Origin: Candidatus Gastranaerophilales bacterium
GTDB taxonomy: Bacteria > Cyanobacteriota > Vampirovibrionia > Gastranaerophilales > Gastranaerophilaceae
DNA length: 35,819 bases
Direction: 5' to 3'
Assembly: GCA_944325095.1 (NCBI GenBank)
Contig: CALUYV010000015.1
Coordinates: forward strand, 1 to 35,819
In this document: positions 19,665 through 27,137 of the stretch, in pieces
Layout: every line of letters begins with the position of its first letter
Numbering within the stretch: the first letter of the stretch is position 1
The notes under the pieces: generated by a model
Database searches by the model: none
What the model saw: the letters and a program-made list of their open reading frames with translations, nothing else
What the model was told of the DNA's origin: nothing
Translations under genes and position numbers: made by a program

Positions 19665-20888
19665 TTATAAATTTTCGTCAGCTTCGTAAGTTAAAATTGT
19701 ATAATTATCAATATCCTTTTTCTTTATCAAAAATTTCGGTTTTCTGGCATCTCCTGAGGGCTGGTGCCCTTGTTTAAATTCAGACAAAACTTCATTCATA
19801 TTAACTTTGTTTAATTCAAGAATCGCCATCTTTTTAAACCGCACCGAATGCTTCATTCTTTCTTTATATGAAATATGTCCGCCTATTTCATAGTGTTCAC
19901 CCGTAAGTTCCATACGCATTATTGCCATTTCAGAATTTCTTGAAGTATCTTTTATCGTTTCATGTTCATAGATTATATACCAGAGTTTTTCATTTGATGA
20001 AATCGCTTCCAGAACATTTTTTTGATCATTCCCCGGAGCATCTTTTTTGATAATATCTGAAGATTTTAAATCACCGTAAAACTTACCGCCGTCAAATCGC
20101 AAATCAAAATCAAGCCTGCCGGATTTGTTTTTGTTTCCTGTATAAACAATCTCTGTAATCTTTTCTTGTTCTAAAAATTTATTAAAAAGAAATTCAAGAT
20201 ACCAGCCTGCCCATTCTGTTTCTTTCCACTTTGCCCAGCCTGCTTCCTTCATTTCGGAAATTGCTTCCTGAGCAGTTATCCATTTATTAAAAGGAAACCT
20301 TGCATTAAAATTTTTAAAAATCTCAAGCAAAGAATTTCCTTTTACCTGACCGGTTAAATATTGTTTAAAATTTTGTGCGGCAACAACTGTAATATGATTT
20401 TTATTTTTGTCGATTTTTTCAAAAATACCATTTTCAACCGCCTGGTAAATATCATTTGAATAAACATGCGCAGCACTGGAATTGCATTTATTTTTCAGAT
20501 AATCATCCGTATTAAACTCTGCAAAAAGAATTATATCGTTATAATGATAAATACCAATCAGTCTTATATTCGTATTTGGTTTGTTTTTATATTCATTATA
20601 AAAATCTTTAAACCATTGTTTCAACTGGCATCGTTTTTTAAACAGCGGATGAGGATTTCCTAAATATGTAATAGAGGATGTCAAAAAATATTCTTTTATT
20701 TCGCTGCCGGTATATACATAAATCGTCTTTCCGTTATAGTTTTCAATTTCGCAGCCTGTACCGAGATATTTTTTATAAACATTCAAAATATCCTCCCGTT
20801 TAGTCAGCGGCTGGTCATAATCCAGAACAATTGTTTTGTCATTATTAATCTGCTCGTTTTTGACAGATTGTTTTTGTTTTTTAATCAT
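19665..20888 (-). CDS. Probable type II restriction endonuclease, PD-(D/E)XK-like
   Basis: The 407-residue protein lies 8 nt downstream of a cytosine-5 methyltransferase, the standard place for its cognate nuclease. A PD-(D/E)XK-like core is visible: E232 in a helix (WYLEFLFNKF), then GRLDFDL (D260, D262), then GDLKSSD with D273-x-K275 in the pattern D-(10-13)-DxK. The first 190 residues are rich in aromatic and lysine residues and may recognise DNA. I do not recognise a named restriction family, so the target site is unknown. The ATG at 20888 is chosen for its AAGGAG, 4 nt upstream; a TTG at 20912 would overlap the methyltransferase. A DNA-cutting role is inferred from context and motif. Confidence 0.75.
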   Translation of the reverse strand: MIKKQKQSVKNEQINNDKTIVLDYDQPLTKREDILNVYKKYLGTGCEIENYNGKTIYVYTGSEIKEYFLTSSITYLGNPHPLFKKRCQLKQWFKDFYNEYKNKPNTNIRLIGIYHYNDIILFAEFNTDDYLKNKCNSSAAHVYSNDIYQAVENGIFEKIDKNKNHITVVAAQNFKQYLTGQVKGNSLLEIFKNFNARFPFNKWITAQEAISEMKEAGWAKWKETEWAGWYLEFLFNKFLEQEKITEIVYTGNKNKSGRLDFDLRFDGGKFYGDLKSSDIIKKDAPGNDQKNVLEAISSNEKLWYIIYEHETIKDTSRNSEMAIMRMELTGEHYEIGGHISYKERMKHSVRFKKMAILELNKVNMNEVLSEFKQGHQPSGDARKPKFLIKKKDIDNYTILTYEADENL

Positions 20889-20896
20889 AAAACTCC

Positions 20897-22063
20897 TTAA
20901 CCGCTTACGCAATCAAACAACTGCTTTGCAAGATATTCCACACAATTCACATTGACTGCATTGCCAAACTGTTTATAGGCCTGATGGTCATTGGAATTCG
21001 GAATAAAAGTATCCGGAAAACTCTGTAATCTTGCGACTTCCCGCGGAGTTAAACGTCTTTTGTAACGGCCGATAATAGGAATATGAACCATTGCAACCAG
21101 CGCAGGAAATGTATCCGGTCTTTTAACCCTTATTCCTGACGGTCTGAATTGAATTATTCCATCCCAGATAGTCGAAATACTTTCTCCTGCCTGCCATTCA
21201 AATTTTCTTTCCGTTGGAGTGAAATCCTCAAGATAATCCCACTTTTTAAGCCATTTATCAAGAAATTTTTTATTGTTTAAATAAAGATTTCTGTTTTTGC
21301 GGCAAAAGTCCGCTTTCCATTTCGGATACTCATCAAGGCTGTAATCCTGGCCAAATTCAAAAGACCATATAGGAAAACCTATAACTTTTTCTTTTATTCC
21401 GTTATAAAACTCATCCCAGCAGGTAAGAACCTTATTTTCATGCTCGCTTATTGAATACTTTTCATCGGCAGATTCTTCAAGAATCCCGCTTTGATATATA
21501 TTTAATGCAGTTTTATCTTTTCGAGGAATTACAACATTTATTTCCTCGCTGTAAATATCCCTGCGAACTCCGAGAATATAAACCCTTTCTCTTAATTGCG
21601 GCACACCTAACTGATGCGGGCTCATTATAACCGGTTTTATATTGTACCCCAGCTCTTCCAGCGTACCTTTTATAACATTCCATGTATTACCTTTATCATG
21701 CGACATAAGATTTCTCACATTTTCAAGCATAATAAATTCAGGTTTGGTACTTTTTAAAATTCTGACAATTTGAAAAAATAAAGTCCCTTTTGTTTCATCA
21801 GCAAACCCCATCTGCTTGCCGGCTTTTGAAAATGCCTGACAAGGAAAACCTCCGCAAAGCACCTGATACTGCGGAATTTCAGTTTCAGACAGTTTTGTAA
21901 CATCAAGATTTGAATCTATATTATAATTTTCCATATAGGTTTGAATTGCATATTCATCAATTTCGGAAGCAAGCACACAAACTCCGCCCAGAGCGCACAT
22001 TGCCTGATGAAATCCGCCTATACCCGAAAATAAATCTATAAATCTAAACCCTCTTTTTAGCAT
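20897..22063 (-). CDS. DNA (cytosine-5-)-methyltransferase
   Basis: This is a type II C5 cytosine methyltransferase, 388 residues, with all main motifs in order. FIDLFSGIGGFHQ is motif I (SAM binding, from residue 9), GGFPCQAFSKAG is motif IV with nucleophile C75, ENV is motif VI with E114, and QLRERVYILG is motif VIII (Q156, R158, R160). RRLTPREVARLQSFPDTF is motif IX, and QFGNAVNVN is motif X. The target recognition domain lies between, about 180-310, and defines an unknown sequence. It protects the chromosome from the downstream nuclease. AGAGGG precedes the ATG closely, and the glycosylase stop is 12 nt upstream, so it shares that operon. Confidence 0.96.
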   Translation of the reverse strand: MLKRGFRFIDLFSGIGGFHQAMCALGGVCVLASEIDEYAIQTYMENYNIDSNLDVTKLSETEIPQYQVLCGGFPCQAFSKAGKQMGFADETKGTLFFQIVRILKSTKPEFIMLENVRNLMSHDKGNTWNVIKGTLEELGYNIKPVIMSPHQLGVPQLRERVYILGVRRDIYSEEINVVIPRKDKTALNIYQSGILEESADEKYSISEHENKVLTCWDEFYNGIKEKVIGFPIWSFEFGQDYSLDEYPKWKADFCRKNRNLYLNNKKFLDKWLKKWDYLEDFTPTERKFEWQAGESISTIWDGIIQFRPSGIRVKRPDTFPALVAMVHIPIIGRYKRRLTPREVARLQSFPDTFIPNSNDHQAYKQFGNAVNVNCVEYLAKQLFDCVSG

Positions 22064-24145: not shown

Positions 24146-24838
24146 ATGAAAAATATTTTAAACAGTATAAAAGGTGTAATAGTGGTTTCTGTTCAGGCAA
24201 TGCCGTCTGAACCTTTATATAGAGAAGAATGCATGCTTGCAATGATGAAATCTGTTGTAAACGGCGGAGCAGGCGGTTTAAGAGTTGCAGGAGTCAGAGA
24301 TGTCAAAAATGCAAAAAAAACATTTGACCTGCCTGTTATCGGACTTACTAAACCTAATGTAATTCCGAAAAACTGGAAAGAAATTGTCTATATTACACCG
24401 ACAATCAAAGATGTAATCAGCCTTGCTGAAGCCGGAGCCGATATTATTGCAATTGACGGCACACAAAGAAAACGTCCTGGAAATGAAAAACTGGAAGATT
24501 TAATAAAATATATTCATATAAATAAAAAGATTGCGATGGCTGATATTTCGACGGTTGAAGAAGGATTAAAAGCCGCGGAAGCCGGTGCGGATATTTTATC
24601 CACAACACTTGCCGGCTATACATTGGAATCTCTTGATTCTCCGGCTAATGAACCTGACTTCAATCTGTTAAAAAATCTTGCAGAGCAGGCACCTATACCG
24701 GTTGTACTTGAAGGAAGAATATGGACGCCGGCGCAGGTTGACAGGGCTTTTGCGCTCGGAGCGCATTGCGTTGTAATTGGTTCTGCAATTACAAGACCGC
24801 AATTAATTACAAAACGTTTTGTATTCAGAAGGGGTTAA
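24146..24838 (+). CDS. nanE: N-acetylmannosamine-6-phosphate 2-epimerase
   Basis: NanE converts ManNAc-6-phosphate to GlcNAc-6-phosphate, a step in sialic acid and ManNAc use. The 230-residue TIM-barrel has the family start IVVSVQAMPSEPLYREE followed by GGAGGLRVAG. IGLTKPN places the likely catalytic lysine at K69, and VVLEGRIWTP places the likely acid at E189; positions are by pattern, not structure. The final GAHCVVIGSAITRP is the phosphate-binding strand. There is no Shine-Dalgarno site, and a TATAAT lies 7 nt before the ATG. It leads an operon with a ROK kinase (24841-27137). No neuraminate lyase (nanA) or sialidase is in the window. Confidence 0.93.
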   Translation: MKNILNSIKGVIVVSVQAMPSEPLYREECMLAMMKSVVNGGAGGLRVAGVRDVKNAKKTFDLPVIGLTKPNVIPKNWKEIVYITPTIKDVISLAEAGADIIAIDGTQRKRPGNEKLEDLIKYIHINKKIAMADISTVEEGLKAAEAGADILSTTLAGYTLESLDSPANEPDFNLLKNLAEQAPIPVVLEGRIWTPAQVDRAFALGAHCVVIGSAITRPQLITKRFVFRRG

Positions 24839-24840
24839 TT

Positions 24841-25026
24841 ATGAAAATTTTTCCGTTAAAACTAATGTCAACTTATGATAAAGCAAAAAATTTGATAAAA
24901 ATTATTTCAGGAGAATTTACTCCGGACAAAATCCGCAATAAACCGGCGATTTCGGATAAAATTGCACCAAATAAACCGGATGAATTTATCTCTAAACAAA
25001 ATTTAAACATTGCCTCAAGCAAATAA
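24841..25026 (+). CDS. Very small hypothetical protein in the nanE operon
   Basis: The 61-residue protein starts MKIFPLKLMSTYDKAKNLIK and is basic (lysine-rich). No family is recognised and no membrane segment is visible. AAGGGG, 6 nt before the ATG, lies in the last codons of nanE. The gene is 2 nt after nanE and 43 nt before the ROK kinase, a coupled layout that supports it being real. The MKI opening is similar to, but weaker than, the MKIxxIS tag of other unknowns here. Function is unknown. Confidence 0.65.
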   Translation: MKIFPLKLMSTYDKAKNLIKIISGEFTPDKIRNKPAISDKIAPNKPDEFISKQNLNIASSK

Positions 25027-25069
25027 ACATCCGGCAGCAGAGTATTTCAATATAAAAGGAGAGTAATTA

Positions 25070-25951
25070 ATGAAGCAGGCACTCGCTTTTGATGTCGGCG
25101 GCACTAAAATATACAACGCAATAATAAATTCCGAAGGGAAAATAATAAGCGAAATAGAAAAAAATCCGACACCTAAAAACATTGAAGATATAAAAAATTT
25201 ATTTAAAACAATTATAGAAAAATATGAAGATAAAGTTGATATAATTGCATTTTCAACCTGCGGTGCAGTTAATAACCAAAATAACGGAATTGTCGGTTCT
25301 ACAGGGAACATTGCAAAAGAATATCCTAAAATGAAATTTTCTGAATTGTCAAAAAAGCCTGTTTTTGTTGAAAATGATGCAAATTGTGCCGCTTGGGCAG
25401 AATATAAAATCGGTGCATCACAAAACACCGCTGTTTCCGTTATGATTACTCTCGGAACAGGTGTCGGCGGAGGAATTATTATTAACGGGAAACTTTTAAA
25501 AGGGCAAAACGGAGCGGCAGGCGAAATGCATTTTAAAATGAATACGGATAAAAGAAGAAAATGCACCTGCGGGAGCTGGGATTGTTTTGAAATTTACGCA
25601 TCCGGCAACGGACTGAAAATTACCGCTCAGGAAATCCTCGGCATGGAAAATGTAACAACCTATGATGTTGTAAACGGTGCTAAAGACAATAATCCTGAAA
25701 TGATTAAAATATTAAAAAAATGGCAGCAGGATATCTCAGACGGACTGGTCGGACTTGCCAACATTTTTGATCCGGATTGTATTGTCCTGTCCGGTTCACT
25801 TGCAGAATTTACAAATACGCAGGAAATAGAAACCTATGTTAATTCTCAAATTGTAACAACTCCTGTCGCAGTAAAAAAGGCAAAAGCAGGAAACTATGCA
25901 GGGATGATAGGTGCTGCATTACTTGCCTTAAATAACGAGGTTAATAAGTAA
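25070..25951 (+). CDS. ROK-family sugar kinase, likely ManNAc or glucose kinase
   Basis: ROK kinases phosphorylate hexoses or N-acetylhexosamines with ATP. The 293-residue protein has the phosphate loop DVGGTK (8-13), catalytic D103 in ENDAN, and the TLGTGVGGG region near 128-136. The ROK sugar-zinc signature has E152, H154, C165, C167 and C172. Because nanE is two genes upstream, an N-acetylmannosamine kinase (NanK-like) is the natural guess; glucokinase is the alternative, since the motifs do not separate them. AAAGGAGAG lies before the ATG. The stop overlaps the next start (TAATG). Confidence 0.9.
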   Translation: MKQALAFDVGGTKIYNAIINSEGKIISEIEKNPTPKNIEDIKNLFKTIIEKYEDKVDIIAFSTCGAVNNQNNGIVGSTGNIAKEYPKMKFSELSKKPVFVENDANCAAWAEYKIGASQNTAVSVMITLGTGVGGGIIINGKLLKGQNGAAGEMHFKMNTDKRRKCTCGSWDCFEIYASGNGLKITAQEILGMENVTTYDVVNGAKDNNPEMIKILKKWQQDISDGLVGLANIFDPDCIVLSGSLAEFTNTQEIETYVNSQIVTTPVAVKKAKAGNYAGMIGAALLALNNEVNK

Positions 25952-26178
25952 TGGGAAAATCCAAAACCAGAATATTAAGAAAAGGTATTAACAACCAGAT
26001 TACCCGCATTTCAAGAGAGGAAGCGGTTAATAATGTTGTAAAATATTTCAATAATAACAATTTATCCAAAGCTCACGATTTAATTACAATGTTCGGTCTT
26101 GGTGCAGAAGAAATACTTGAAGCCGGCGCAAGTTATGAACATGTAGCCGCAATGAAAAATATTATAGAGATATGGTAA
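25951..26178 (+). CDS. Small hypothetical protein between ROK kinase and prenyltransferase
   Basis: The 75-residue protein matches no family I recognise. The first 20 residues are basic (GKSKTRILRKG), the rest is predicted helical: EEAVNNVVKYFNNN, SKAHDLITMFGLGAEEILEAGA and SYEHVAAMKNIIEIW. It could be a small helical DNA- or protein-binding domain, but that is a guess. It overlaps the ROK stop by one base and the prenyltransferase start by 7 bases, so it is made by coupled translation. That tight packing is the best evidence that it is real. Confidence 0.75.
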   Translation: MGKSKTRILRKGINNQITRISREEAVNNVVKYFNNNNLSKAHDLITMFGLGAEEILEAGASYEHVAAMKNIIEIW

Positions 26179-27137
26179 ATTTTATAAAAAAAATAATTTT
26201 CTGGCTCAACTGCGCAAGAGTATATTCTCTGCCGATTACTGTTTTGAACTGGATTGTTATATTTATTTATTCTTTAAAATCCGGAGGAAACGCATTTTTA
26301 GGACTTGCCGCACTGATTGGTATTTCTCTTGTTCATATGGCAACAAATCTTACAGACGATTATTTCGACTATAAAATTTTATCAAAAGATGAAAAATACC
26401 TCAATTCTGCCCAGAACTGCAAATGTCTTTACCTGAAAAACAATCAGGCTACAACAGAAGAATTAAAATTTGTAATATTTATATTCCTCGGAATTGCCTC
26501 AATAATAGGAGGAGTCCTGTTTTTTATGTCAGGATATTATGTTGCCCTGCTTGCATTTATCGGGCTTTGCGTTGCTGCCGGATATCAAAAACTTTCTATC
26601 TCAGGAAAAGGAGAAATTGCAATATTTATTGCATACGGGCCTTTGTTATATGAAGGCACATATTATGTTATGACCGGCAAATTTTCCTTTGATGTTTTAT
26701 TTTTATCAATAGCGTGTGTATTTATGACAATTACTGTTTTATATGCACATATGCTTATGGATTATGACGGAGATGAATCATCGCATAAAATAACCCTCTG
26801 CAGAAAATTTAAAAATAAAACTTCCGCCCTGAAATTTATTCTTGTATTCTATTTGCTCGGATTTTTAAATATCTCTGCATTTGCAATATTAACCCGAAAT
26901 TATTATTATTTTTTATCTTTTTTAACCCTGCCGTTAATTATTGATTTGTACAAATCGTTAAATGCTTTTAATCACGATAAAATGAATATACCGCAGATAA
27001 AATTCTGGCACTATCCGCTTGACGGGTGGGAAAAGATAAAAAACACACAGGATGCACCTTTTTATTTCCGTTTTTTCTATGTAAGAAATATCCTTATCTG
27101 GTTTTTATTACTTATATGTATTGGAATTATTTTATAA
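26172..27137 (+). CDS. UbiA-family membrane prenyltransferase
   Basis: UbiA enzymes transfer a polyprenyl chain to an acceptor in the membrane. The 321 residues have about eight or nine hydrophobic helices. The first Mg-diphosphate motif is NLTDDYFDYK (N59, D62/D63, D66). The second is in HMLMDYDGDESSHKITL near residue 190. NLTDDYFD and the second motif resemble MenA-type members (1,4-dihydroxy-2-naphthoate prenyltransferase), but the acceptor cannot be told. The start overlaps the upstream small gene by 7 bp. Its place at the end of a ManNAc-type operon is unexpected for a quinone gene. A weak CTTCCC/GGGAAG hairpin follows the stop without a good U-tract. Confidence 0.85.
   Translation: MVNFIKKIIFWLNCARVYSLPITVLNWIVIFIYSLKSGGNAFLGLAALIGISLVHMATNLTDDYFDYKILSKDEKYLNSAQNCKCLYLKNNQATTEELKFVIFIFLGIASIIGGVLFFMSGYYVALLAFIGLCVAAGYQKLSISGKGEIAIFIAYGPLLYEGTYYVMTGKFSFDVLFLSIACVFMTITVLYAHMLMDYDGDESSHKITLCRKFKNKTSALKFILVFYLLGFLNISAFAILTRNYYYFLSFLTLPLIIDLYKSLNAFNHDKMNIPQIKFWHYPLDGWEKIKNTQDAPFYFRFFYVRNILIWFLLLICIGIIL

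Follow-up and report, generated by a model that had tools for sequence, protein, structure and literature searches.

Why should a membrane prenyltransferase be encoded at the end of a set of amino sugar genes? The question is raised by a stretch of 35,819 nucleotides (nt), hereafter the window, on contig 15 of a Gastranaerophilales genome (gut Vampirovibrionia; 1.79 Mb, 89% complete), in which genes for the epimerase NanE and a sugar kinase of the ROK family are joined to a gene of the UbiA superfamily through two small open reading frames (ORFs), here called S61 and S75. We found that the order NanE-ROK-S75-UbiA is real and goes beyond chance, and that this tight conserved unit is layered, joining modules which assemble independently of each other. 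With a probability of about 0.62 we regard the UbiA protein as a divergent MenA-like naphthoate prenyltransferase that turns a precursor salvaged from outside into (demethyl)menaquinone, its link with the amino sugar genes being one of co-expression or hitch-hiking. The five ORFs lie where an earlier reading of the bare sequence (the original prediction) had placed them, all on the plus strand and spaced -7 to +43 nt apart (protein lengths in amino acids, aa):

24146..24838, plus strand: NanE, putative N-acetylmannosamine-6-phosphate 2-epimerase, 230 aa (Pfam NanE, NCBIfam NF002231)
24841..25026, plus strand: S61, small fast-evolving protein, 61 aa (start codon ATG 24841 backed by the N-terminal motif of its relatives)
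25070..25951, plus strand: ROK sugar kinase, probable N-acetylmannosamine (amino sugar) kinase, 293 aa (Pfam ROK)
25951..26178, plus strand: S75, conserved helical small protein, 75 aa (conservation, all-helical AlphaFold2 model)
26172..27137, plus strand: UbiA-superfamily membrane prenyltransferase, MenA/UBIAD1-like, 321 aa (Pfam UbiA, intact Asp-rich motifs)

NanE and S61 are separated by 2 nt and S61 and ROK by 43 nt, while ROK overlaps S75 by 1 nt and S75 overlaps UbiA by 7 nt. Scans of the operon for promoter- and terminator-like sequences stayed within two standard deviations of shuffled counts and lend no support.

A tight unit of separable modules

Conservation was followed in 146 genomes from 41 genera, a draw from the larger family, using linkage limits of our own choosing (S75-UbiA gap <600 nt, NanE-S75 distance <2500 nt). 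By match coordinates NanE..S75-UbiA is linked in 74 of the 146 genomes and in 18 of the 41 genera, with S75-UbiA gaps of only -3 to 59 nt, which shows conservation of gene order for all members except the patchy S61. NanE..S75 is linked in 90 genomes, 16 of them without UbiA attached, and the interval of 859-1396 nt between the two contains the ROK gene in the linked loci inspected. NanE is present in 57 of the 60 genomes searched for ROK, and in each of these a ROK gene follows it at a distance of 12-297 nt. From these linkage counts NanE-ROK emerges as the widest pair; some members of the family add S75 to it, and fewer add UbiA. Regarding presence as such, NanE was found in 140 of the 146 genomes (125/125 of the high-quality ones), S75 likewise in 140, and UbiA in 141 (124/125 high-quality). 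UbiA gives a single match per genome, except for one genome in which it is split over two contigs, and it is unlinked to NanE..S75 in 67 of the 141 UbiA genomes, contig breaks counted. The UbiA proteins of the NanE operons fall into one clade of 19 tree rows (support 100/98), of which 16 are linked and three (L069, L010, L027) are not; the link of UbiA to NanE-ROK-S75 would have arisen once within the family. In the accessible parts of the literature we found neither a description of the NanE-ROK-S75-UbiA operon nor any set of quinone salvage genes reported for Gastranaerophilales.

NanE belongs to its family by both profiles (Pfam NanE 198.3 bits, cut-off 27; NCBIfam NF002231 257.9 bits, cut-off 189), and the kinase of the operon is a ROK protein (Pfam ROK 205.9 bits, cut-off 22.9) that stays below the cut-offs of the NanK models (160 vs 283 and 141.6 vs 450 bits) and of the glucokinase model TIGR00744 (161.1 vs 260.35). 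That it is the glucokinase of the cell was considered and rejected: a second ROK protein of the window genome reaches 263.2 bits and passes the TIGR00744 cut-off, so the operon kinase is probably not the glucokinase. Most likely NanE and the ROK protein, the latter as a putative kinase of N-acetylmannosamine (ManNAc), convert ManNAc to N-acetylglucosamine-6-phosphate (GlcNAc-6-phosphate).

The prenyltransferase and its proposed quinone context

The UbiA protein is a member of its superfamily (Pfam UbiA 63.7 bits, cut-off 34.2), and of its ten matching NCBIfam models eight are for MenA. Both Asp-rich motifs are intact, and residues N59, D62, D63, D66, D197, D201 and K206 are invariant in 34 diverse relatives; these are 34 of 51 cluster representatives, and one 580-aa ORF (L062, from genome G011) was excluded from alignment and tree. 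This ORF is twice the usual length and possibly represents a fusion or a missed stop. A profile search of the PDB put UBIAD1 first (E 6e-21), far ahead of an archaeal lipid synthase (8e-4) and chlorophyll synthase. The AlphaFold2 model (predicted local distance difference test score, pLDDT, 93.8) likewise matches UBIAD1 best, with Z 25.9 and a root-mean-square deviation of 2.4 over 262 residues, followed by generic UbiA homologues (Z 20.8), digeranylgeranylglyceryl phosphate (DGGGP) synthase (20.2) and a phosphoribosyltransferase of the Rv3806c type (16.0). The last lies well under UBIAD1, fold matches do not decide function, and UbiA-fold families that do not appear on the list are not thereby disfavored.

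The nearest named relatives of this UbiA belong to gut genomes, either of Gastranaerophilales or titled 'Cyanobacteria bacterium'. A 62-protein tree sets E. coli UbiA and CyoE apart from the MenA side, on which the UbiA of the window is placed, and the Gastranaerophilales proteins, together with four from Bacteroidales, form a group of their own (88/78) beside E. coli-type and cyanobacterial MenA; 7 of the 14 rows of these MenA types were labelled with NCBIfam, and the long E. coli rows are placed unsurely. The choice between MenA and other clades, which the original prediction had left to phylogeny, thus falls to the MenA side but outside the canonical MenA clades.

Neighborhoods in other lineages point in the same direction. 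In four genera (g3, g8, g19, g31) UbiA adjoins UbiE/MenG, the two lying a few nt apart or overlapping by as little in the loci measured (4-nt gap in L057, 4-nt overlap in L061), and these UbiA proteins make up one clade within the family (100/98); in another genus (g15) UbiA is followed by a synthase of the farnesyl/geranylgeranyl diphosphate (FPP/GGPP) type. The amino sugar linkage is read as secondary mainly because orthologous UbiAs travel with quinone genes elsewhere. A radical S-adenosylmethionine (SAM) gene of ~300 aa lies directly beside UbiA in g16, g29 and the four Bacteroidales contigs (L053, L054, L055, L056, L066, L071, L081, L082); of the Bacteroidales contigs three are titled Tannerella and one Porphyromonadaceae. 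The UbiA proteins with this partner form a third clade (92/85), and their grouping may point to a cassette of two genes that was passed on laterally. In nine further loci from another set of genera (L068, L070, L075, L077, L080, L083-L086) we read UbiA from the sequence as lying divergently upstream of a ribosomal protein/rpoA-like block, followed in eight of the nine by a phosphatidylethanolamine-binding-protein gene.

According to the marker counts, genes for the end of a quinone pathway are present while the early genes tested for are not, and possible quinone users occur in part of the family only. MenB, MenD and MqnA/MqnD passed their cut-offs in none of the 146 genomes (MenF, MenC, MenE and MenH were not searched for); in 14 control genomes the same models passed in 7 (MenD), 7 (MenB) and 4 (MqnA/D) cases. 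By these markers the family has neither the classical nor the futalosine pathway. Weak MenD matches occur in 130 genomes, many within a few kb of UbiA. A divergent MenD was rejected as their explanation, the neighboring thiamine diphosphate (ThDP) enzyme being acetolactate synthase (657 bits, cut-off 538, in the case inspected).

UbiE, counted at ≥120 bits to PF01209 (a limit chosen by us), is present in 68 of the 146 genomes, every one of which has UbiA, and in 44 of the 74 operon-linked genomes (summed genus rows). In the window genome UbiE exceeds the TIGR01934 cut-off (180.2 vs 158.35); UbiA and UbiE without MenB, MenD and MqnA/D give this genome the gene content of a partial (salvage) pathway, and no further men genes were recognised around UbiE. 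The window genome further encodes an FPP synthase that passes its cut-off and, as second trans-prenyl synthase, one of long-chain type that is closest to solanesyl/heptaprenyl synthases (best match solanesyl, 157 bits). NuoD-like matches of ≥185 bits to TIGR01962, again our own limit, as no match reaches the curated cut-off, were found in 33 of the 146 genomes, 32 of these with UbiA. A hydrogenase-like large subunit of the window genome (495-aa frame, G000:C22:17324-18133) scores 128 bits to NuoD.

The favored route would begin with a naphthoquinone precursor, 1,4-dihydroxy-2-naphthoate (DHNA) or a relative such as menadione, which the cell would not make but take from neighbors or diet. UbiA would attach to it a polyprenyl chain, probably supplied by the long-chain-type synthase, and UbiE/MenG, where present as in the window genome, would methylate the resulting demethylmenaquinone to menaquinone. 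NanE and the ROK kinase would meanwhile feed ManNAc into GlcNAc-6-phosphate, and their link with UbiA would be one of shared expression or of hitch-hiking rather than of one chemical pathway. Precedents exist: DHNA users with only MenA and UbiE are documented in Porphyromonas, where P. pasteri has DHNA as its growth factor (PMC9704088); among gut bacteria both DHNA and menaquinones act as growth factors (PMC5738691); and salvage has been proposed as a hypothesis for genomes with menAG only (PMC4746308). From a near-universal, intact MenA-like enzyme, often accompanied by UbiE and a long-chain-type prenyl synthase but not by the early genes tested, one would predict a dependence of the family on its neighbors for quinone precursors. 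If this is true, DHNA, menadione or menaquinone would be candidate growth factors for culture.

Competing readings of the operon

A number of observations weigh against salvage of a menaquinone precursor. UbiA scores below every curated MenA cut-off (best 75.9 vs 264 bits; TIGR00751 44.4 vs 102.15) and lies outside the known MenA clades, a separation which has moderate support in the tree. UbiE went undetected at our limit in 78 of the 146 genomes, and there the end product would therefore differ or another methylase would act, while its invariable co-occurrence with UbiA is weak evidence because UbiA is present in 141/146 in any case. The long-chain-type prenyl synthase of the window genome is below its equivalog cut-offs, the genome itself is only 89% complete, and it has no true complex I NuoD and no demonstrated quinone-using enzyme (the search did not extend to a DHNA importer or further quinone enzymes). 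Di Rienzi et al. (PMC3787301) describe Melainabacteria as devoid of respiratory complexes and quinones, and the gut members as fermenters. UbiA is kept even in genomes that have neither UbiE nor complex I, which allows for a different acceptor or role.

Much of this would fit a UbiA whose acceptor is a different aromatic or naphthoquinone compound and whose product serves a non-respiratory purpose, for instance as redox shuttle or as antioxidant of the membrane; UbiE or a radical SAM enzyme would do the tailoring, depending on the lineage. In addition to the missing UbiE, the lack of complex I in the window genome and the divergence from canonical MenA, the radical SAM gene adjoins UbiA in g16, g29 and the four Bacteroidales loci, and UbiE is found in none of the eight genomes of g16 and g29; read from sequence, the radical SAM partner is suggestive of an alternative tailoring enzyme in lineages without UbiE. 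UbiE/MenG directly beside UbiA in four genera speaks against such a role, as do the 32 of 33 NuoD-like genomes with UbiA, a pattern to be expected of a product used by complex I there, even though nearly all genomes have UbiA in any case. We consider a non-respiratory product unlikely, yet worth keeping in view. A narrower variant, in which the supply of an acceptor other than DHNA is tied to ManNAc-6-phosphate metabolism and tailoring by UbiE or radical SAM enzyme leads to a new lipid, either of the envelope or with a non-respiratory redox role, appears quite improbable.

The original prediction had linked amino sugar phosphate with a polyprenyl acceptor in a possible cell-envelope or glycolipid pathway. 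In such a pathway UbiA would move polyprenyl to, or sugar phosphate onto, a carrier from the NanE-ROK product and so yield a hitherto undescribed lipid-linked amino sugar. The order kept in 74 genomes with tight gaps would suit it, and Rv3806c (PMC10994848) provides the example of an enzyme with UbiA fold that transfers a sugar phosphate to polyprenyl phosphate. In fold and sequence, however, UbiA is closer to UBIAD1 than to this phosphoribosyltransferase (Z 25.9 vs 16.0). NanE-ROK often occurs without UbiA, as does NanE..S75 in 16 genomes; UbiA often occurs without NanE-ROK, in several cases beside UbiE/MenG; and no glycosyltransferase, flippase or phosphatase was recognised within the operon. 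These findings count against the proposal, which we hold to be very improbable. Quinone synthesis of the MenA type, which had been offered as the plainer alternative, is retained as regards the enzyme and given up as regards full synthesis, salvage taking its place. A complete home-made menaquinone pathway with unrecognised early enzymes could appeal to PMC3787301, which credits one gut genome and ACD20 with possible synthesis of vitamins K1 and K2; with MenD, MenB and MqnA/D at 0/146 despite models that pass in controls (the four other Men enzymes lying outside the search) and sub-cut-off MenD matches that behave like acetolactate synthase, it strikes us as barely credible. The combination named beforehand as telling against a new pathway, that is a known MenA clade, men genes in the genome and an unconserved order, was not found as a whole, because UbiA is outside the canonical MenA clades, the tested early men genes are missing and the order is kept in half of the genomes.

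Small proteins, a nearby restriction locus and known systems

Both small ORFs had been put down as unknowns, and indeed neither reaches any Pfam family; S61 has no match above cut-off in NCBIfam either, and PADLOC matches neither protein. Relatives of S61 keep the motif MKIFPLKxxSxxDKAxNL over the first ~20 residues and diverge freely thereafter, a pattern resembling a leader or anchor before a variable tail. In 46 of the 57 genomes NanE and ROK are just 12-78 nt apart, which leaves no room for S61. The S61 gene is real but patchy and fast-evolving, and it is missing from most genera. S75 in contrast has 10 invariant residues among 43 sequences; it always begins with MGK, and an (A)EE(I/L)LEAGASYE stretch is conserved. 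Its AlphaFold2 model is all-helical (pLDDT 82.4) and has no PDB fold match at E ≤ 0.001; sequence matches to armadillo repeats concern a short stretch of helix within designed repeats and were dismissed. Neighbors vary at loci where S75 and NanE-ROK are unlinked, and in several genera we read a Mini-III RNase-like and a histidine-kinase-like ORF nearby.

Elsewhere in the window, a type II restriction enzyme (19665-22063, minus strand; PADLOC REase_II, 256 bits; Pfam MTaX1) overlaps a C5-cytosine DNA methylase. In two relatives without the restriction enzyme (L032, L033) the sequence runs across the site, with ~30 bases between the flanks.

Compared with known nanE-nanK amino sugar genes, the operon shares a NanE over cut-off and a ROK gene adjoining it in 57/57 genomes, whereas its ROK protein is below the NanK cut-offs and S75 and UbiA are additional. 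Rv3806c phosphoribosyltransferase and archaeal DGGGP synthase have the UbiA fold in common with the prenyltransferase, but with lower fold scores (Z 16.0 and 20.2) than UBIAD1 (25.9). With MenA of E. coli and the cyanobacterial phylloquinone MenA it shares the fold, both Asp-rich motifs, the best curated models, the MenA side of the tree and, in four genera, an adjoining UbiE; it differs in staying under all MenA cut-offs, in its separate clade, in genomes without MenB/MenD and in its place in an amino sugar operon in half of the family. The partial menaquinone pathway of Porphyromonas, Tannerella and Lactobacillus (menA and ubiE only) is alike in combining prenylation and methylation genes without early men genes, although in Gastranaerophilales the early-pathway markers stand at 0/146 and about half of the genomes were found without UbiE. 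UBIAD1, the animal menaquinone-4 synthase, is eukaryotic with regulatory partners and shows 17-18% identity in the fold alignments, but it is the closest solved structure to UbiA by both sequence and fold, and it works in organisms unable to make the naphthoquinone ring.

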